From NCBI GenBank assembly GCA_947572385.1, contig CANPBX010000017.1, positions 1-44,777 on the forward strand: a stretch of DNA of 44,777 nt, written 5' to 3'. Shown here one piece after another: positions 15,112 to 34,193 of this stretch. Position numbers and translations under genes: made by a program. The notes under the pieces were generated by a model, which did not search any database, was not told the DNA's origin, and worked only from the letters and a program-made list of their open reading frames with translations. Each line of letters opens with the position of its first letter. The first letter of the stretch is position 1. The DNA is from an uncultured Clostridia bacterium (GTDB taxonomy: Bacteria; Bacillota; Clostridia; Oscillospirales; Acutalibacteraceae).

Positions 15112-17400
15112 ATGAACATGAACAAGACAGTTAAGCGCGCTTTGGCGCTGATGCTGGCTATGCTGATGCTGGTCACCGTGTTTGCCGCCTGCGGCAACGA
15201 CAGCGGCAATTCCTCCGGCTCATCATCAGAGGAAAGCGGCCAGAGCAGTGAAGCGTCTAACAGCGGCACTGAGGAGAGCAGCGATGTAGGCGGGGAGGAC
15301 GAGGAGCCCACCGACACCGGCTGGACCATCCCCAGCATTGACAGCGACGACTACGACGAGATTTCCGACTACTACTATGAGTTCAATCTGAGTGAGTTCC
15401 ACGAGCTCTGCGAGGCTTACGCCGCGGAGATCGAGGACCAGAACCGCCGCTGGGCCCTGGAGGCTCTGGCCGAGGCGAAGCTGATGGCTTCCGGCGTTAT
15501 GCAGCCCACCAGCTGCAACGGCGGACAGTACCAGATAAGCGCCGTTGCCCCCGGCTCAGTTACCTCCAACGGCTGGGGCGCCGACGACACCCGTTATCAG
15601 TACGCCCTTATCACCGACAAGGTTTTGAAGACCGAGGACCGCGACGCCCTGAAGAAGCTGCTCAACGAGAAGCGCGGCACCGGCGAGTACCGTGCGGCAG
15701 CTACCGAGTACCTGACCTCTCACGGCTATCAGCTGAAGGACAGCCTGAACCTGGCCTTCGGTGAGATGCCCACCACCTATGACATGGTGAATACCAGCCG
15801 CGCAGGCGACGCCACCTACTCCATCGGCAGCGTGGACAGCCTCCTGTACTACGACGGCGAGGACCGCGAGCTCCCCGCGCTGGCTGAAAGCTATGATGTT
15901 TCCGAGGACGGCCTGACCTACACCTTCCACATCCGCAAGGGCGTGAAGTGGGTGGACAGCCAGGGCCGTGAGATCGGCGACGTTATCGCTGACGACTGGG
16001 TTGCCGGTATGCAGCATATGCTGGACTCCCAGGCGGGCCTTGAGACCCTGTTCATCGGCTATGTTGTGGGCGTGGGCGACTACGTTGACGGCAAGTGCGA
16101 TATTGACGGCGTAGGGATCAAGGCTATCGACGACTACACCCTGGAGTACACCCTGGAGAAGAAGACTCCTTACTTCACCTCCATGCTCCACTACGGCATC
16201 TCCCTGCCCCTGAGCCGCAGCTACTACACCTCCCAGGGCGGCAAGTTCGGCGACGACTTTGACGACGCCGACGAGAACTATATGTACGGCCGCGACCCCG
16301 ACCATATCGCCTACTGCGGTCCCTTCCTTATCACCAATGTTACCGAGAACAACTCCATCACCTACAAGGCCAACCCCCTGTACTGGGATGCTGAGAATGT
16401 TACCATTAAGTCCATGTCCTATCTGTTCAACGATGGCTCCGACCCCACCAAGGGCTATAACGATGTGAAGGCCCGCACCATCGACAACTATGGTATCAAC
16501 AGCTCCACCCTGGTCATGGCTAAGGAGGAGAAGATGGACGGCGACGAGAAGAGCGTGTTCGACACCTACGTATACGTTTCCGCCACCGGCTCCGCTTCCT
16601 ACTTCAACTTCCTGAACATCAACCGCGCGGCCTGGGCCAACAGCAACAATGCCTCTGACGCTGTCTCCAAGCAGACCGACGAGCAGAAGGAAGTTACCCA
16701 TGCGGCCATGAACAACGTGCATTTCCGCCGCGCCCTTGCCTGCTCTGTTGACCGCGTGACCTGGAACGCTCAGAACGTGGGCGACGACATTGCAGAGCTC
16801 TGCCTGCGCAACACCTACACCCCCGCCACCTTCGTCACCCTCAGCGAGGACGTGACCGTGCCTGTGAACGGCGTGGACACCACCTTCCCCGCGGGCACCG
16901 ACTACGGCAAGATCATGCAGGCCCAGCTGGACGCTGACGGCGTGAAGATCACCGTTTATAAGGATGACCCCAATGCTGAGAACGGGCGCGGCACCGGCGA
17001 CGGCTTCGACGGCTGGTTCAACGTGGAGTACGCCCAGTCCGAGCTGGAGATAGCTCTTGAGGAGCTGGCTGCCAACGGCATTACCGTTGACGAGAGCAAC
17101 CCCGTACACCTGGACTTCGTGTACCCCTCCCAGAGCCCCACCAGGACCAACGCCGTGAACGCTTTCAAGCAGCAGGTTGAGAAGAACCTGGGCGGCAAGG
17201 TCATCATCGACCTGGTTGACTGCCCCGATAACAAGGTTTGGTACGCCACCGGCTACAACATCGAGCGCGGCTATGAGGCTAACTATGACCTGTTCGACCT
17301 CTCCGGCTGGTCTCCTGACTATCAGGACCCCTGCTCCTATGTTGACACCTTCCTGCCGAACTACAACGGCTATATGACCAAGTGCATTGGTATTTACTAA
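15112..17400 (+). CDS. Oligopeptide-binding lipoprotein (AmiA/OppA-like), apparently circularly permuted
   Basis: The 762-residue protein starts with a lipoprotein signal (lipobox VFAAC, Cys27) and a Ser/Glu-rich linker (28-68). The SBP_bac_5 core begins only near residue 212 (LNLAFGEMPTTYD) and continues through DGLTYTFHIRKGVKW and LSGWSPDYQDP, then ends 21 residues later at KCIGIY. Family members such as pneumococcal AliA continue for roughly 110 or more residues after this point. That missing segment appears to lie at residues 90-185: RRWALEALAEAKLM, QPTSCNGGQY, VAPGS and YQYALITDKVLKTEDRD match the order of the canonical tail (AQAWLTDS, PTTS..G, VPF, YKYLELQDKAVT). The protein would capture peptides outside the membrane for the permeases encoded downstream. 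Its codons are strongly biased, fitting high expression. The permutation is my reading and needs a structural check. Confidence 0.88.
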   Translation: MNMNKTVKRALALMLAMLMLVTVFAACGNDSGNSSGSSSEESGQSSEASNSGTEESSDVGGEDEEPTDTGWTIPSIDSDDYDEISDYYYEFNLSEFHELCEAYAAEIEDQNRRWALEALAEAKLMASGVMQPTSCNGGQYQISAVAPGSVTSNGWGADDTRYQYALITDKVLKTEDRDALKKLLNEKRGTGEYRAAATEYLTSHGYQLKDSLNLAFGEMPTTYDMVNTSRAGDATYSIGSVDSLLYYDGEDRELPALAESYDVSEDGLTYTFHIRKGVKWVDSQGREIGDVIADDWVAGMQHMLDSQAGLETLFIGYVVGVGDYVDGKCDIDGVGIKAIDDYTLEYTLEKKTPYFTSMLHYGISLPLSRSYYTSQGGKFGDDFDDADENYMYGRDPDHIAYCGPFLITNVTENNSITYKANPLYWDAENVTIKSMSYLFNDGSDPTKGYNDVKARTIDNYGINSSTLVMAKEEKMDGDEKSVFDTYVYVSATGSASYFNFLNINRAAWANSNNASDAVSKQTDEQKEVTHAAMNNVHFRRALACSVDRVTWNAQNVGDDIAELCLRNTYTPATFVTLSEDVTVPVNGVDTTFPAGTDYGKIMQAQLDADGVKITVYKDDPNAENGRGTGDGFDGWFNVEYAQSELEIALEELAANGITVDESNPVHLDFVYPSQSPTRTNAVNAFKQQVEKNLGGKVIIDLVDCPDNKVWYATGYNIERGYEANYDLFDLSGWSPDYQDPCSYVDTFLPNYNGYMTKCIGIY

Positions 17401-17688
17401 TTGCAAAGCAATTAGTAAATACACACGGATTTGAACTTCGTTCAAATCCTAGGGATATACAAGAATTTGAACCACATTCAAATTCTAGGGATCTTATATG
17501 TCCCGGGGCTTTACTAATATAGTAAAGGCTAAGGCATGCTATCACAGATAGCATGATGGACTGCTGAGAAAGAAGCCGGGCTCGCCCGGCCGAGCATAAC
17601 GATAGACTTAGAGGGTCTATCCGCTTATGAGAGTGGGCGATGGGGCCGTATGGCTCCATCCCCAATCTCTATATTTACAAGAAATATA
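17391..17688 (+). repeat. Array of nine consecutive stem-loops in the binding protein-permease intergenic region
   Basis: Nine short-loop inverted repeats follow one another. (1) 17391-17404/17408-17421, 14 bp, loop AAA, containing the stop codon. (2) 17427-17436/17440-17449, 10 bp, loop TTC. (3) 17462-17471/17477-17486, 10 bp. (4) 17509-17516/17520-17527, 8 bp, loop ATA. (5) 17535-17543/17547-17555, 9 bp, loop ACA. (6) 17575-17580/17585-17590, 6 bp GC. (7) 17601-17608/17614-17621, 8 bp with one wobble. (8) 17639-17647/17652-17660, 9 bp, extendable by GGG/CCC. (9) 17670-17676/17682-17688, 7 bp. None has a T tail, so these are not simple terminators. Stem-loops after binding-protein genes are known to protect the upstream mRNA and lower permease expression, as in malE-malF. 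Nine in a row is unusual. Confidence 0.85.
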
Positions 17689-17704
17689 AAAGAAAGCAAA
17701 CCGC

Positions 17705-17737
17705 AGATGATAATATGAAAAAGTAGATGATAATATG
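17705..17737 (+). repeat. Tandem 13-bp repeat carrying two start codons before the permease gene
   Basis: AGATGATAATATG occurs at 17705-17717 and again at 17725-17737. The second copy ends in the permease start codon (17735). The first contains ATG 17715, which opens a three-codon frame ATG AAA AAG TAG. No AGGAGG-like site lies upstream of either. Confidence 0.7.
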
Positions 17738-19309
17738 GCAAAATATATTCTAAAAAGATTTTTACACGGCCTTATCTCTATCGTCATAGTGGTGGCGATA
17801 GTCATGATGCTGATATACTCTCTGCTGGACCGCACGACCATCTTTTCGGAGGACGAGGTCTACCGCAAGCTGCAGAACAACGCCCGCACCACCTATACCT
17901 ACCGCCGCTGGCAGGACTACGGCTACCTTCACTATGTGAACTATAACGACTGGCTCAACGAGCAGGTCAGGGAGGGCAAGCTCGACCCCGAGACCAAGGA
18001 CGAGGCCACGGACTTGGGCCGCAAGCCCGAGGACGACGAGGGCGTCGTGGCCCAGTACGTCAAGGAGTTCACAGACTACTACGAGAGCCAGGGCTATAAA
18101 GTGGAGCGCCTCAAGGCCGTGACCTCCAGGCGCAAGGTCGCCGCGGGGGGCCAGGCGGAGCTTTTCGCCCATAAGGACAGGCCGCTGGTCTCAAGGCTAT
18201 GGAGCTATTTTTCCAGCATCGTCACTATCGACACCATCCACTATGTGGACGAGGACGTTGACATCGGCAAGCGCGAGCTTACCTTCACCACCCATGACCC
18301 GGTCTACGGCGGGGAGAAGTTCTCCCCGGCAATAATGGGCAACGGCACAAAGCATAAGTACCTGCTGTACTTTGACGACAAGTTCCCGTACCTGCACCAA
18401 AACCTCATCACCATAAACCTGGGCACATCATACTCGGTGAACAAGGACCACGATGTTCTTGAGACCATGCTCCAGAGCCAGGGCTCCTATGTTACAAGGC
18501 CCACGGTATTCCCAAGCGGCCACGTGGAGGAGAGCGCCGACGACCTGCACACTGCAATCTATCTTGAGGGCTCCCTTGCAGGCTCCGAGCTGCTCCAGTC
18601 CCGCTTCACGGACGACTATACCAACGTCCTTACAAGAAGGGGCGGGCGCTCCAAGGTCGCCTTCTCCTTCAGCATCGGCATTTTAGCCAGTATCATGGCA
18701 TATGCCCTGGGCCTGCCCCTTGGCGTGTTCATGGCAAGGCATAAGGACGGCATTGTGGATAAGCTGGGCACCTTCTATATCGTGTTCATCATGGCGGTGC
18801 CGAGCCTTGCCTATATCTTCCTGTTCAAGGCCATAGGCGGCTCAATGGGCCTGCCTACCACCTTCGACGTGAACAACGGCACCGCGCTTATGTATGTGCT
18901 GCCCATTGTGTCCCTGGCGCTGCCTTCGGTGGCGAACCTGATGAAGTGGCTCAGAAGGTACATGATAGACCAGATGAACTCGGACTATGTGAAGTTCGCC
19001 CGGTCCGGGGGACTGTCTGAGAACGAGATATTCGCAAAGCATATCCTGAAGAATGCGGCTATACCCATCGTCCACGCTATCCCCGGGACAATACTGGGCG
19101 CGCTCACCGGCGCCATCATCACCGAGCGCGTGTACGTGGTCCCCGGAACCGGCAACCTGCTGACCCAGGCCATCAACTTCTACGATAACGGTGTTATCGT
19201 AGGCGTGGCGATGTTCTACGGTATGCTGTCGGTGGTGGCCATCATCCTGGGCGACGTGCTCATGTCAGTGGTAGACCCGCGCATCTCGTTCTCGTCCGAG
19301 AGCCGCTAA
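17735..19309 (+). CDS. Oligopeptide ABC transporter permease, AmiC/OppB-like with large ectodomain
   Basis: The 524-residue protein has one N-terminal membrane helix (residues 9-29), an extracytoplasmic segment of about 270 residues, and the usual BPD_transp_1 core after residue 300. The coupling EAA-like loop is GLSENEIFAKHILKNAA. Canonical OppB has about 305 residues; pneumococcal AmiC, near 500, has a comparable enlarged ectodomain, so this one is Ami-like. It forms half of the membrane channel with the next gene product. The start is fixed only by the repeated ATG at 17735; there is no clear ribosome binding site, and the stem-loop array lies upstream. Confidence 0.9.
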   Translation: MAKYILKRFLHGLISIVIVVAIVMMLIYSLLDRTTIFSEDEVYRKLQNNARTTYTYRRWQDYGYLHYVNYNDWLNEQVREGKLDPETKDEATDLGRKPEDDEGVVAQYVKEFTDYYESQGYKVERLKAVTSRRKVAAGGQAELFAHKDRPLVSRLWSYFSSIVTIDTIHYVDEDVDIGKRELTFTTHDPVYGGEKFSPAIMGNGTKHKYLLYFDDKFPYLHQNLITINLGTSYSVNKDHDVLETMLQSQGSYVTRPTVFPSGHVEESADDLHTAIYLEGSLAGSELLQSRFTDDYTNVLTRRGGRSKVAFSFSIGILASIMAYALGLPLGVFMARHKDGIVDKLGTFYIVFIMAVPSLAYIFLFKAIGGSMGLPTTFDVNNGTALMYVLPIVSLALPSVANLMKWLRRYMIDQMNSDYVKFARSGGLSENEIFAKHILKNAAIPIVHAIPGTILGALTGAIITERVYVVPGTGNLLTQAINFYDNGVIVGVAMFYGMLSVVAIILGDVLMSVVDPRISFSSESR

Positions 19310-19324: not shown

Positions 19325-20302
19325 ATGAAATCTGAACTTACGAATCTTAAAGAACTGGGCCTGCCAGAGGAGGAGCTGTTCTCCTTCGTGGAGCACAGCG
19401 ACACGGAGGCCGAAAAAATAACTGCCCCCAGGTACTCCTACTGGCAGTCGGTGTTCCGGGTGTTCTTTAAAAAGAAGATAAACATTATCATGCTGGGGCT
19501 GTTGGTGCTGATAATTATTTTCGCCTATGTATACCCCACCCTGATAACCTATGACCGCTACGCAAATATAACCGACTCCACCACAAAGCACCTTATGCCA
19601 GGGGCGGCAATAGAGAAGTTCGGCTTCAGCCTGAGCTGGATACTGGGCTCCGGCGGCTCCGGCGAGCCCACCTTCGACACCGTCTGGGTGGGGTCCAGGA
19701 TATCCATATCCCTGGCGCTTATGTGCGCTGTAATAAACCTCAGCATCGGCGTTATAGTGGGGGCCGTGTGGGGCTTCTCCAAGAAGATGGACATGATCAT
19801 GATGGAGGTCTACAATACCCTCTACAACATCCCATATGTGCTGCTGATATCCGTGCTGGTGCTGACCCTTACGGCCAGCTTCTGGACGATGGTCTTCGCA
19901 TTGACCGTTGTTGGATGGCTGGGCGTCGCGTACTTCATACGAACGCAGGTCATTATAATCCGGGATAGAGAGTATAACCTTGCCTCAAGGTGCCTTGGCA
20001 CCCCTATAAGGCGCATTGCCTTCAGGAATATCCTGCCCTTCATGACCTCTGTTATCGTGACCCTGTCCGCGACCGAGATACCCTCATACATCTCCTATGA
20101 GGTGTTCCTGTCCTATATCGGCGTGGGCCTCAAGGATATGTCCCTGGGCCGCCTGATATACGAGGCCGAGCCCGCCATGGTCACCAACGGCTGGCAGTTC
20201 GAGTTCTGGAGCCCGGTGGCGGTGGCTTCCATCATCGCAGTGGTGTTGTACGTTGTCGGCCAGAACCTGGGCGACGCGTCCGACCCCAGGACCCATATGT
20301 AA
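19325..20302 (+). CDS. Oligopeptide ABC transporter permease, AmiD/OppC-like
   Basis: The 325-residue protein has an OppC-type N-terminal helix (about 50-70), an extracytoplasmic stretch with YDRYANITDSTTKHLMPG, and the BPD_transp_1 domain (about 120-310). The EAA-like loop NLASRCLGTPIRRIAFRNILP contacts the ATPases. GAGGTAGAGAG precedes the ATG, 15 bases after the previous stop. It partners the AmiC-like permease in the import channel for peptides. Confidence 0.93.
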   Translation: MKSELTNLKELGLPEEELFSFVEHSDTEAEKITAPRYSYWQSVFRVFFKKKINIIMLGLLVLIIIFAYVYPTLITYDRYANITDSTTKHLMPGAAIEKFGFSLSWILGSGGSGEPTFDTVWVGSRISISLALMCAVINLSIGVIVGAVWGFSKKMDMIMMEVYNTLYNIPYVLLISVLVLTLTASFWTMVFALTVVGWLGVAYFIRTQVIIIRDREYNLASRCLGTPIRRIAFRNILPFMTSVIVTLSATEIPSYISYEVFLSYIGVGLKDMSLGRLIYEAEPAMVTNGWQFEFWSPVAVASIIAVVLYVVGQNLGDASDPRTHM

Positions 20303-20314
20303 GGAGGGCTTCCC

Positions 20315-22057
20315 ATGGAAATGAATAACAGGAAAGTCCTGCTGTCTATAAAGGACCTGGAGGTAAAGTTCCGGGTGCGCGGGCGCATACTCACCGCCAT
20401 CAGGGGCATAGACCTTGACATCTACGAGAACGAGTCCATTGCCATAGTTGGCGAGTCCGGCTCAGGCAAGTCCGTCTTTACAAAGACCTTTGCAGGCATG
20501 CTGGATTCCAACGGCTTCATAGATAACGGCAAGATCATCTTTAACGACGATGAGTTGGCCGACACCCACGTAAGGCTCATGGGCACCGCCCGCAATACCA
20601 TTGCCAACACCAGAAAGAAGCTGGACGAGTACGCAAAGCTCGAGCACGGCTCCGCCACCTACAGGAGGATACTGGAGCTGGAGAGCGAGCGTAAGCAGAA
20701 GATGAGCGTCAGCGACCAGGAGGCCGGGGAGCATAAGAGGCGCATAGAGGAGCTTCGCTTTAAGCGGGCCGAGACCTTCAACCTGCGCCAGACACTGGAC
20801 TCCCGGACCGACAAGGAGCAGATAAAGAAGCTCGGCAACGAGATAAAGGGCCTTGACAACCAGATAAAGCGCCTGCAGCAGGAATATGAGGCAAGGGTAA
20901 AGAAGAACGCCGCCGACGTGAAGGCCGACGGCAGCTACCAGGCCAGCTTCAATAAGCGCATGGAGGAGCTGAAGGCCCAGTACGTCAAGGAGACCTCTGT
21001 GGAGATAAGCGCCGAGCAGAAGAAGCGCAACGAGATCCTCGCCAAGGAGATATACCTCTCCGTTGGGCGCTACCCCTTCCATAGGCGCATAAGCCTTATA
21101 AGGGGGCTCCTAAAGGAGATAAGGAAGGCCATGCAGCTGGGCGTTGACCCGATGGACGACGCTGTTTTCGACAAGGTGGTCTTTAGGGTGCGGTATATTG
21201 ACGAAACTGCCGACGCGCTCCATGGCACCTGTACCCTAAACCTTGCCAACGTGAAATTTGCCGGGGACTGGGCCCAGATCCGGGGCCGCAGGATCGCCAC
21301 CGTCTTCCAGGACCCCATGACCTCCTTAAACCCCATTATCACCATCGGCAAGCAGATAACCTCCATTATCCTGAAGCACCAGAACTGCTCAGAGGTGGAG
21401 GCCCGGGCCAGGGCAATAGAGCTCATGCACAAGGTGGGCATACCCAACGCCGATGCCCGCTTCGACGACTACCCCTTCCAGTATTCCGGAGGCATGCGCC
21501 AGCGCATAGTTATAGCCATCGCCCTTTCGTGCCAGCCTAAGATACTAATATGCGACGAGCCCACAACGGCCCTGGACGTTACCATCCAGGCCCAGATAAT
21601 CAAGCTCATCAAGGACCTGCAGAAGGAGTTCGGCTATACCATCGTGTTTATCACCCATGACCTGGGGGTAGTGGCGAATATAGCCGACCGCGTGGCGGTG
21701 CTGTATGCCGGGCAGATAGTGGAGCTGGGCCAGGTCGAGGAGGTATTCTACGACCCGCGGCACCCCTATACCTGGGCGCTGCTCTCAAGCTTGCCACAGC
21801 TGGCGCGGCGAAATACAAAGCTCTACTCCATAACCGGCACGCCGCCCTCGCTCTATAACCAGATAGTGGGCGACCCCTTCGCACCCAGGAACCCCTACTG
21901 CCTGAAGCTGGATACCCTCATGGAGCCCCCGATGTTCCCGGTGACAGAGACCCACTTCGCCAAGACCTGGCTCCTGGACCCCAGGGCCCCCAAGGTGGAG
22001 AAGCCCGAGCTTATACAGGACATCCACGAGAAGCTCATGCGAGCGTTCAATATATAG
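20315..22057 (+). CDS. Oligopeptide ABC transporter ATPase, AmiE/OppD-like with a long insertion
   Basis: Walker A is GESGSGKS (residues 46-53), the Q-loop is FQDP (331-334), the signature SGGMRQR (391-397), Walker B LICDEP (411-416) and the switch His is H448. The C terminus keeps the OppD/AmiE peptide-transporter extension ([23 protein letters not shown] and TWLLDP). At 580 residues it exceeds AmiE (about 355) by about 225. The extra part lies between residues about 85 and 315, directly after the strand following Walker A, and is rich in Lys, Glu and Arg with heptad-like helices. The reading frame is open through it, so this is a real insertion, not an assembly artefact visible here. It supplies ATP hydrolysis for import together with the AmiF-like protein. 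Confidence 0.93.
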
Positions 22058-22069
22058 GAGGGACAGCAT

Positions 22070-23374
22070 ATGGCAACCACAACTGTTGATACCGGCGCCA
22101 AAACGCGCCATCTGCCGGAGCACGGGCCCATAGACCCTGCCACCGGCCGGGAGGTGCTGCTGTCCATCCGTAACGTGGACATCACCTTCGGCAAGGGGGA
22201 CAGCGCCGTTAAAGCGGTGCAGAACGCCTCCTTCGATATCTATAAGGGGGAGACCTTCTCCCTGGTGGGAGAGTCGGGTTCCGGCAAGACCACCATCGGC
22301 AGGGCCGTTATCAGGGTAAACCCCTGCGCGGCAGGGCAGATACTCTATAAGGGCGTGCCCATCAACGGCAAAATACCCCGCTCACTGGACCGTGAGGTGA
22401 TCCGCAATATCCAGATGGTCTTCCAGGACCCGGCGGCCTCACTGAACGAAAGGGCCACCGTTGACTATATCGTCTCAGAGGGCCTATATAACTTCCATCT
22501 TTTTGAGAACGAGGCCGACCGCGTGGAGAAGGTCAAGAACATGATAACCGAGGTGGGCCTGCTCCCTGAGCACCTGACCCGCTATCCGCACGAGTTTTCC
22601 GGCGGCCAGCGCCAGCGCATAGGCCTGGCTCGGGCCATGGTAATGGAGCCGGAGCTGGTAGTGGCGGACGAGCCGATCTCAGCCCTGGACGTTTCAATAC
22701 GCGCCCAGGTCTTGAACCTCCTGAAGAAATTCCAGCAGGAGCGGGACGTGACCTATCTGTTCATCGCCCACGACCTTTCAATAGTGCGCTTTATCTCGGA
22801 CAGGATAGGCGTTATCTATAAGGGCAAGATCGTAGAGATAGCCGAGGCCGATGAGCTTTTCAACTTCCCGCTGCACCCCTACACGCGCTCCCTTATCTCA
22901 GCGATACCCATACCGGACCCTATCCTTGAGAAAAACAAGGTGCTATTTACCTACGACCCCTCCATACACGACTACAGCACCGACCAGCCGGAGCTTACAG
23001 ACATAGGGCATAACCACTTTGTCTACGGCAATAAGAAGGAGCTTGAGGAGTATAGAGCCATCCGGGAGAAGGGCGTGCCCATGAAGTCCATCACGATCCG
23101 GGACGGCAGCGCTCCCCAGGAGCACGAGGAAGAGGACACGGTCGACACCAGCGGCATTTTGGACACGCCACTGCATGATACCGGCAGTATCTGGTATATG
23201 ATACTCTCCCTGCTGCTGCCGATACTGGGCATAATTGCCGCGGTCATCTTTAAAAAGAAAAACTATATCAGAAACTATAAGGCCTGCAAAAAGGGAGCGG
23301 TCATCAGCTTCTGCATAATCGGAGCGGTGATAGCCCTGTTCCTGCTCGCACTGCTGTTTGCCGTCATATTCTGA
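22070..23374 (+). CDS. Oligopeptide ABC transporter ATPase, AmiF/OppF-like with C-terminal membrane anchor
   Basis: The 434-residue protein has Walker A GESGSGKT (67-74), Q-loop FQDP (118-121), signature FSGGQRQR (177-184), Walker B ADEP (199-202) and H234. The AmiF-type tail ([26 protein letters not shown]) ends near residue 330, where AmiF normally stops. About 100 further residues follow: an acidic linker and two hydrophobic helices (about 374-395 and 409-434). That would anchor one ATPase directly in the membrane, which is not standard for OppF. AGGAGGG precedes the ATG. The stop codon overlaps the next start (TGATG). Confidence 0.93.
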
Positions 23375-24432
23375 TGGGGAACAGGGAAAAAAGGCCCCCC
23401 GCGCTGCCTAAGGTGGAGCGGGTGGAGCTCAACGAGACCCATATAGGACGAAAGTTCATTGCCTTTGTCCTATGCCTTGCCCTGGGGCTTAGCGCCCTGG
23501 GGTTCGGCATTTACAGCCTGCTCACCACAGAGCCGGGCTGGGCGAAGATAGAGGCCAGCTCTACCGAGGCCCGCTGTGCCGCGGACTTTAACTTTCAGTA
23601 TTACTTCCAAAAGGACGCCACAGCCCAGCGCAAGGCCCTCACCACCCTCTATACCCAGGAGTGCATGAGGCTCACAAAGCTTCTCGATACCACGGGATCC
23701 TATGAGGACAGCCCGGGAAACCTTCACGACATCAACGCCCACCCCAATGAGGAAATAGAGGTGGACCCGCTGCTGTATAAGGTCCTGGAGCTCCTTATGG
23801 ACCGGGGGGATGTAACTATGTACCAGGGCCTGCTGAATGCCTACAGCCTGAACCTATACTACGACGGTGATGGTGAAGACCCCTTTGCAGACCGCACAGA
23901 GCTGGCTGACATAGCTTTGGACAGGACGGCCCTGGATCTCCGGCTGCTTGGGGAGGATACCCTGAGGCTGGAGGTCTCCGCCGGGTGCGAGGCAGTGGCC
24001 GCCGAGCTTGGCCTCGACTGCTACCTGGACCTGGGCTGGCTGAAAAACGCCCTCATCCTGGACAGCCTGGCAGAAACCCTCGGCTCCCAGGGCTTTACAG
24101 ACGGCATAATATCCAGCCGGGACGGCTTTGTCCGTTCGCTTGGCGGGGAAGTGGGGACGGTAGGCCTGAGCCTGTATAAGTGGGAGAACGATACCGCTGT
24201 CGAGACAGGCAGGAAGGAACTGAGTACCCCCATAAACGCCGCTTCCCTTACCTGCTTTCCGCTTCCGGGGGACGACGGCAGGGCTTTCGTCTCACAGAAC
24301 GCGCTCAGGGCCCAGCGCCCAGGGGAATATGCCAGTGCCCCAGCGGAGACCATGCTGCTCACTTCAGAGGACAAGGGCTGCCTTGAGCTGGCCCTTGAGG
24401 CCGGAGACCGCCTGCTGGATAGTGAACGATAA
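23374..24432 (+). CDS. Membrane-anchored degenerate ApbE-like protein
   Basis: The 352-residue protein has a short cytoplasmic N terminus, one membrane helix (about 28-50) and an extracytoplasmic domain. Several stretches recall ApbE (FAD:protein FMN transferase): LTKLLDTTGSYEDSPGNLHDIN resembles the early ApbE Asn segment, and YLDLGWLKNALILDSLAE then LGSQGFTDGIISS resembles the ApbE core where GGIAKGYAVD is usual. The glycine-rich flavin-binding residues are changed, so catalysis is doubtful. Its start overlaps the AmiF-like stop codon, so it is translated with the transporter. It might be an accessory or a flavin- or peptide-binding subunit. The family assignment is tentative. Confidence 0.5.
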   Translation: MGNREKRPPALPKVERVELNETHIGRKFIAFVLCLALGLSALGFGIYSLLTTEPGWAKIEASSTEARCAADFNFQYYFQKDATAQRKALTTLYTQECMRLTKLLDTTGSYEDSPGNLHDINAHPNEEIEVDPLLYKVLELLMDRGDVTMYQGLLNAYSLNLYYDGDGEDPFADRTELADIALDRTALDLRLLGEDTLRLEVSAGCEAVAAELGLDCYLDLGWLKNALILDSLAETLGSQGFTDGIISSRDGFVRSLGGEVGTVGLSLYKWENDTAVETGRKELSTPINAASLTCFPLPGDDGRAFVSQNALRAQRPGEYASAPAETMLLTSEDKGCLELALEAGDRLLDSER

Positions 24433-33783: not shown

Positions 33784-33857
33784 GCGGGTGTAGTTCAGTG
33801 GTAGAACTCCAGCCTTCCAAGCTGGTCGTGTGGGTTCGATTCCCATCACCCGCTCCA
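33784..33857 (+). tRNA. tRNA-Gly (TCC)
   Basis: A complete cloverleaf: acceptor GCGGGTG/CACCCGC, anticodon stem CCAGC/GCTGG with loop CTTCCAA (anticodon TCC), T arm GTGGG/CCCAT-like with TTCGATT, discriminator T and encoded CCA (33855-33857). Confidence 0.97.
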
Positions 33858-33907
33858 AAGCCCCAAGAGGGCAAATATAATCGTGGGCCAAGGGGTGCCC
33901 CGAACAT

Positions 33908-33984
33908 GCGCCAATAGCTCAGCTGGATAGAGCAACTGCCTTCTAAGCAGTAGGCCAGGGGTTCGAGTCCCTTTTGGCGCGCCA
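33908..33984 (+). tRNA. tRNA-Arg (TCT)
   Basis: Acceptor GCGCCAA pairs with TTGGCGC; the anticodon loop CTTCTAA gives anticodon TCT, reading AGA/AGG. T loop TTCGAGT, discriminator G and encoded CCA are present. Confidence 0.97.
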
Positions 33985-33987
33985 TAT

Positions 33988-34065
33988 GGTGGACGTAGCT
34001 TAGCTGGTCAAAGCGCCAGATTGTGGCTCTGGAGACCGTGGGTTCGAATCCCACCGCCCACCCCA
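33988..34065 (+). tRNA. tRNA-His (GTG)
   Basis: The anticodon stem CCAGA/TCTGG carries loop TTGTGGC (anticodon GTG). The extra 5' G (33988) opposite discriminator C73 is the His identity feature. The acceptor GTGGACG/CGCCCAC has one A-C mismatch at pair 5-68. CCA is encoded (34063-34065). Confidence 0.95.
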
Positions 34066-34117
34066 CGCAAAAGGCACGGAGTTTAATTCTTGAAATTAGG
34101 CTCCGTGTCTGCCATAT

Positions 34118-34193
34118 TGGGCTGTCGCCAAGCGGTAAGGCAACGGACTTTGACTCCGTCATCCCGTGGGTTCGAATCCCGCCAGCCCAGCCA
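34118..34193 (+). tRNA. tRNA-Gln (TTG)
   Basis: Acceptor TGGGCTG pairs with CAGCCCA; anticodon loop CTTTGAC gives anticodon TTG. The U1-A72 pair is typical of tRNA-Gln. Discriminator G and encoded CCA follow. Confidence 0.97.

Follow-up and report, generated by a model that had tools for sequence, protein, structure and literature searches.

The closest described systems are the oligopeptide importers of the Ami type. The pneumococcal substrate-binding proteins (SBPs) AmiA, AliB, AliC and AliD (PDB 8a42, 8qlj, 8qlh and 8qlc) have an SBP family 5 core, a GWxxDYxDP motif and a tail segment with helix α19 at the C-terminus, and the pneumococcal Ami importer has two permeases, one of them large, and two ATPases. 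According to passages of the AliD paper (PMC11192437), Domain I of AliD consists of residues 29–63, 191–296 and 583–617, Domain II of residues 64–190 and Domain III of residues 297–582, and the C-terminal helix α19 (residues 622–652) packs on Domains I and II. The paper defines Lobe 1 as Domains I and II and Lobe 2 as Domain III, a definition that we use throughout; other passages swap the lobe numbers. W498 and D501 are described there as holding the first residues of the peptide, with I603 and N608 among the contacts; in the model of that paper, one extracellular domain of AmiC is wedged between the lobes and a second touches Lobe 1 only, while AmiD touches Lobe 2.

Among ABC importers, the nearest precedent for a lipoprotein SBP with a natural circular permutation is TpMglB-2 (Tp0684) of Treponema pallidum. 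Passages of the paper on it (PMC4990184) describe a glucose-binding lipoprotein of cluster B that is permuted, is termed 'Type Ic' or 'Cluster Bc', has a fourth lobe crossing and shows little sequence conservation in its moved part; according to its authors, it has homologues in many Gram-positive bacteria. The initial annotation knew of no permuted member of the peptide-binding family. For the Opp/Ami type we likewise found none in the open-licence literature, which omits most subscription journals and preprints, but TpMglB-2 is a published permuted SBP of another cluster. The permuted form of the Ami/Ali type is apparently undescribed.

The window analysed here is the whole stretch of 44,777 nucleotides from an uncultured Clostridia bacterium. 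One of its genes very probably encodes an oligopeptide-binding protein that is lipid-anchored, serves an Ami/Opp-type ABC importer and has a circularly permuted chain. Its features are as follows:

15112..17400, forward strand: gene of the putative permuted oligopeptide-binding lipoprotein (open reading frame of 762 aa)
15112..15192, forward strand: signal peptide with lipobox FAAC and lipid-anchor Cys27, predicted from the sequence
15193..15366, forward strand: Ser/Glu-rich (acidic) flexible linker, residues 28–85, predicted from the sequence
15367..15687, forward strand: relocated canonical C-terminal tail, residues 86–192 (phmmer, profile and hhalign matches)
15568..15594, forward strand: NGWGADDTR (consensus LWGNDxxR), aligned with the AliD ligand-contact loop I603–N608 (alignment read by eye, conservation)
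15667..15783, forward strand: seam, residues 186–224, joining the former C-terminus to the former N-terminus (lengths in 71 rows)
15745..17397, forward strand: SBP family 5 core, residues 212–762 (PF00496, phmmer, hhalign)
17305..17331, forward strand: GWSPDYQDP motif, residues 732–740 (aligned with AliD W498 and D501)
17368..17400, forward strand: new C-terminus GYMTKCIGIY and stop codon (end point conserved in 71 rows)

The window protein thus shares core, motif and tail segment with the pneumococcal proteins, but its tail is N-terminal and stands behind a long linker, and its new termini map to Domain III. A 629-aa open frame lies antisense to most of the gene (15556–17445, minus strand) and is probably an artefact of codon usage.

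The profile score places the window protein in SBP family 5 (PF00496, cluster C), at residues 255–753 and above the curated cut-off (144.2 versus 32.4 bits); NCBIfam gave nothing above cut-offs for it. PF00496 is also the core fold family of the OppA-type SBPs (e.g. Salmonella OppA, 1b05), which have the canonical order, and the weaker OppA-like open reading frames (ORFs) in our data gave no tail-segment hit. Within the family, the Ami/Ali subfamily is the best match in the PDB (phmmer E 2.8e-65 to 5.6e-60; the next chain has E 1.9e-28). A family 5, cluster C sequence would not belong to the Type Ic/Cluster Bc group of TpMglB-2. That protein has a cluster B sugar fold, another cut and a fourth crossing, whereas the window protein would have two crossings, and its moved part is clearly homologous to the canonical one.

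In a single-sequence phmmer search against the PDB, the core (residues 217–747) aligned with AmiA 21–497, and a second stretch (residues 89–192) aligned weakly with AmiA 520–627 (17.2 bits, independent E 0.013); the tail stretch was not significant by itself in AliB and AliD (E 21 and 3200). A profile of 71 sequences (alignment A2: the window protein and 70 of 78 extracted proteins, L071 being left out for a run of N) placed the tail region on the C-terminus in exchanged order, with independent E values of 3.7e-6 for AmiA, 3.1e-7 for AliC, 1.9e-7 for AliB and 2e-7 for AliD. From A2 we also drew A3 (the window and 63 relatives) and A4 (the window and 34). A profile of the segment only (window residues 84–209 in A3), run against 177,635 distinct PDB sequences, recovered the C-terminal tails of AliC, AliB, AliD and AmiA (E 5.7e-9 to 1.2e-7) and, beyond these four Ami-family C-termini, nothing below E 0.56; in none of its PDB hits did the segment stand at the N-terminus of the chain. 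By hhalign, the segment fell on columns 515–611 of a 630-column alignment of 17 canonical relatives (E 8.9e-15) and the core on columns 38–496 of the same alignment (E 1e-104). Both segments are homologous to one parent family and occur once each in exchanged order, which is what defines a circular permutation. The core-to-tail order that is canonical in Ami/Ali proteins is absent from the window protein and its permuted relatives, and the segment of the Ami-family C-terminal helix, predicted to be helical by homology, has a homologue that has moved. The tail-like pattern that the initial annotation saw behind lipobox and linker is real, and the HMM-HMM comparison it proposed with the C-termini of the family came out in its favour.

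At the other end, the protein stops at KCIGIY, 22 residues past GWSPDYQDP. The initial annotation rightly let the core end soon after the motif, but counted 21 residues. Nothing resembling a canonical tail was found behind the core in any of the three forward frames of 17201–17760, which excludes that a frameshift or an early stop has left the tail in a different frame. Tail and core are indeed exchanged where a single cut had been proposed. However, in canonical relatives such as L135 the core is connected to the first tail helix by a variable loop, so the cut lies within a lost loop and is not one exact bond. The new end is well conserved in the 71 A2 rows: the distance from W733 to the end is 28–32 residues, the third residue from the end is Gly in 70 of them, and the last is Y, F or W in 68.

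The seam from moved tail to core (E186 to D224) is 39–42 residues long in all 71 A2 rows, and the distance from the lipid Cys to position 89 is 23–80 residues in the 58 rows measured. This near-constant seam length, together with the alignment of the segment with the ligand-contact loop of AliD, argues against an independent domain. That the N-terminal segment could be such an accessory domain, carried outside the SBP fold by a truncated binding protein, is very improbable: all significant PDB matches of the segment profile are Ami-family C-termini, the canonical tail is missing at the C-terminus, and conserved residues of the segment align with the pocket loop I603–N608 described in passages of the AliD paper. 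It does stand behind a long flexible linker, as an extra domain would, Pfam SBP_bac_5 covers residues 255–753 only, and there is a sub-threshold Pfam match to frataxin. We rejected the latter (E 0.011, 16.3 bits, cut-off 21.3) because the Ami-tail profile is far stronger on the same residues.

Selection acts on the moved segment and the core to a similar degree in two of three comparisons. The dN/dS values of segment and core are 0.233 and 0.211 between the window and L006, and 0.256 and 0.258 between the window and L007; those for the 99%-identical L005 (0.145 and 0.036) rest on 3.5 and 5.5 nonsynonymous differences. The seam is not uniformly low (0, 0.10 and 0.44 in the three comparisons, on 39 codons each), and the lipid linker has values of 0.28–0.49. 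We argue that the moved segment would be integral to the protein rather than added on, and circular permutation is supported as by far the best-fitting reading. That the gene product is an Ami-type binding protein with a circularly permuted chain is established about as firmly as sequence allows, its fold being predicted from homology.

The lipobox regular expression was satisfied by 58 of the 71 A2 rows. The 13 failing rows were left out of the linker count; among them are three with a lipobox-like Cys and a disallowed next residue (L045, L093 and L095) and one with a late chosen start (L105). Read by eye, eight permuted proteins (L048, L052, L074, L076, L078, L080, L081 and L082) have a signal peptide without a lipobox, so they may be secreted or held otherwise, which is unusual for a Gram-positive binding protein. 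Another permuted protein, L133, has a twin-arginine-like signal (SRRDFMKG) ahead of its lipobox, which suggests export in folded form.

We then compared the order of tail and core across related loci. Classification with HMMs of 147 loci gave 146 core-matching ORFs: 106 with the tail before the core, 18 with the tail after it, none with both and 22 without a tail hit. The missing C-terminal tail and the absence of any ORF with both an N-terminal segment and a normal tail bear out the permutation proposed in the initial annotation. Because several loci repeat one genome, the 106 tail-before ORFs represent 95 distinct cores. Beyond the core match, 105 of these 106 have 0–2 residues left, compared with 115–267 in the 18 tail-after ORFs. 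The 22 ORFs without a tail hit comprise 20 loci with weaker OppA-like matches, L129, which is truncated at a contig end, and an additional weak ORF in L109. The canonical proteins (L125–L128, L130, L131, L135–L145 and L147) come from the same class or phylum and have the same core and tail pattern, but their tail is C-terminal and the permuted proteins separate from them on trees.

In the genus of the window, 10 of 29 genomes (the window's included) contain a full-length homologue with 42–100% identity, and all ten homologues, the window protein among them, are permuted. A contig scan with these ten proteins found at least 534 stretches encoding a relative, the best 80 of which were analysed. 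In these best 80 of at least 534, the tail precedes the core in every locus, all of them being counted among the 106 tail-before ORFs, and the ORF ends 20–24 residues past the motif in all 79 loci in which the motif was found; in the other (L108), masked bases hide the C-terminus, and the tail still stands before the core. As the loci were ranked by a permuted query, 80 of the best 80 of at least 534 gives no measure of how frequent canonical proteins are. Judging from record titles, these best 80 of at least 534 are mostly from Clostridia (Lachnospiraceae, Oscillospiraceae, Butyrivibrio and others), three of them (L064, L097 and L112) being titled Erysipelotrichaceae; most come from metagenome-assembled genomes, and Butyrivibrio hungatei DSM 14810 and Butyrivibrio sp. 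INlla14 are named strains.

Core-only searches, which give a fairer picture of frequency, found two permuted and seven canonical-like proteins (including L129, cut at a contig end) in 398 genomes of the phylum, and five permuted and 11 canonical proteins in 391 genomes of the class, the window being counted in both; canonical proteins are undercounted here because the profile was built from permuted cores and at most three candidates were scored per genome. Of 300 genomes sampled from the family, nine matched the full permuted profile at E 1e-60, and all nine proteins are permuted. One genome (G887) contains both forms, permuted L132 (C18:89382-91010) and canonical L145 (C13:97797-98777), and so offers a natural pair.

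The breadth of this distribution also bears on whether the gene could consist of half-genes or tandem SBP copies misjoined by assembly, or be a decaying frameshifted gene. The window's genome is in 84 contigs and most scan loci stem from metagenome-assembled genomes, as a misassembly would have it. Such an artefact is nevertheless ruled out for practical purposes by the same architecture in 95 distinct permuted cores, including those of the two named Butyrivibrio strains, and by dN/dS values of 0.04–0.26 for segment and core; nor does any downstream forward frame contain a tail. The permuted gene instead looks like a real, working but apparently undescribed variant, the same rearrangement having been kept in many related gut bacteria.

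Trees were built in canonical register from 60 permuted proteins (50 A2 rows including the window, and 10 further ones) and 17 canonical proteins; L129, cut at a contig end, and L147 were left out, and L128 and L141 entered with untrimmed starts. The permuted form occupies one side of a branch with SH-aLRT values of 99 for core and tail together, 99 for the core alone and 96 for the tail alone, the tail-only tree resting on 121 columns. These are quick trees, rooted on three sequences of genome G616, and they gave warnings of long canonical branches (L135 and L145) and uneven letter make-up. In the joint tree, L122 (from genome G097) branches first among the permuted proteins. A core-only search of 60 relatives of G097 found one permuted protein, that of G097 itself, and one canonical protein, and no tail-core-tail intermediate; likewise, none of the 146 core ORFs has the tail at each end that a duplication intermediate would show.

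That all permuted proteins share one cut supports one event. Duplication, fusion and trimming are the usual route to a permutation, and an Ami-type gene that was duplicated in tandem, fused and trimmed is probably the single origin of the permuted form. Since the Domain III loop is variable in canonical proteins, it might be a cut site that can be used repeatedly, and several independent permutations at this one loop would then be conceivable. We regard this as improbable in view of the single branch that separates the permuted proteins on the core-only, tail-only and joint trees, and of the same end point, 20–24 residues past the motif, in 79 of 79 loci with the motif (best 80 of at least 534).

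We also mapped the single permutation event favoured here onto AliD, as described in passages of PMC11192437. The alignments were read by eye with a chain-to-precursor offset of 25, and Y50, A52, D53, W498, D501, I603 and N608 fall on the right letters. W733 and D736 of the window protein align with AliD W498 and D501, and both are invariant in the 71 rows. In the sequence alignment, the cut maps near AliD 526–528, in Domain III, so that the new protein end corresponds to a canonically internal loop of that domain. By homology, the moved part (∼105 last residues) comprises the last stretch of Domain III, the C-terminal portion of Domain I, which includes I603–N608, and α19 or its start. The protein would have an ordinary two-lobed Venus-flytrap fold, in which W733 and D736 are expected to bind peptide N-termini and the relocated LWGNDxxR loop would complete the pocket. 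Because both old termini should lie on Lobe 1, their fusion would be local and the lobe crossings would still be two, with no new one. With the cut in Domain III, the lipid anchor and its long linker would be attached to Lobe 2 and no longer to Lobe 1. We hypothesize that a tether on Lobe 2 alters docking or function.

The genes behind the binding-protein gene are as follows:

17735..19309, forward strand: OppB/AmiC-type permease, 524 aa (PF00528 at residues 326–518)
19325..20302, forward strand: OppC/AmiD-type permease (Pfam, NCBIfam)
20315..22057, forward strand: OppD-type ATPase (Pfam, NCBIfam)
22070..23374, forward strand: OppF-type ATPase (Pfam, NCBIfam)

The window therefore holds the gene set of an importer, with a large permease that is AmiC-like by description, a second permease and two ATPases, all on the same strand as the binding-protein gene, as in the pneumococcal Ami system. 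The long region before the permease domain of 17735..19309 is likely an extracellular insert as in AmiC, and the first 222–235 residues of this 524-aa permease match genes beside the canonical loci L131 and L135. A permease homologue lies downstream in 79 of the 80 scan loci (best 80 of at least 534), L045 being the only one without such a homologue within 4 kb. The permuted protein might instead be a peptide sensor or scavenger that no longer takes part in transport, given that roles of AliC and AliD beyond uptake are reported in some papers and that some permuted relatives have no lipobox. Such a loss of transport is unlikely: the gene heads a complete importer operon in the window, and a permease gene directly follows in 79 of the best 80 of at least 534 scan loci.

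Several further observations were made in this neighbourhood. The gap between binding-protein and permease genes (17401–17734) is densely packed with RNA hairpins (-117 kcal/mol, z -8.4), and much of it is conserved at 83–98% in L005, L006/L034 and L007. A search of the genome found no further copy of the gap (the next match had E 0.19), and no Rfam model matched it at the gathering score. In 89 loci, all 86 measured gaps have a more stable fold than mononucleotide-shuffled sequences (z -2.7 to -16.5), and the hairpin gap may set a higher level of binding protein than of permease. Behind the ATPases, 23374–24432 encodes a protein of 352 aa with one apparent N-terminal membrane segment and no Pfam or NCBIfam family at E 0.001. 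In NCBIfam, the OppC-, OppD- and OppF-type proteins (19325–23374) scored best against models named after MMSYN1, below cut-offs; we take MMSYN1 to be a Mycoplasma-derived minimal cell. A cluster of four tRNAs lies at 33784–34190, and a fifth tRNA match, at 1–49, is cut off by the start of the window.

To our knowledge, it is uncommon for a natural permutation to have both forms alive, a single permuted group, a moved part of clear homology and an intact operon. Annotation has a blind spot here: the PF00496 match ends ahead of the tail, so a permuted and a canonical protein would be labelled alike. With the permutation, a different lobe of the flytrap should be tethered to the membrane, and the effect of tether position and chain topology on delivery to the ABC importer can therefore be tested with natural pairs. 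We consider it probable that a large clade, mostly of clostridial gut bacteria, for which we propose the name 'Cluster Cc', arose from one permutation that shifted the anchor from Lobe 1 to Lobe 2, with docking by the opposite lobe. If this is true, the binding protein of these importers would be presented and docked through the lobe opposite to the one used in the Opp/Ami systems studied so far.
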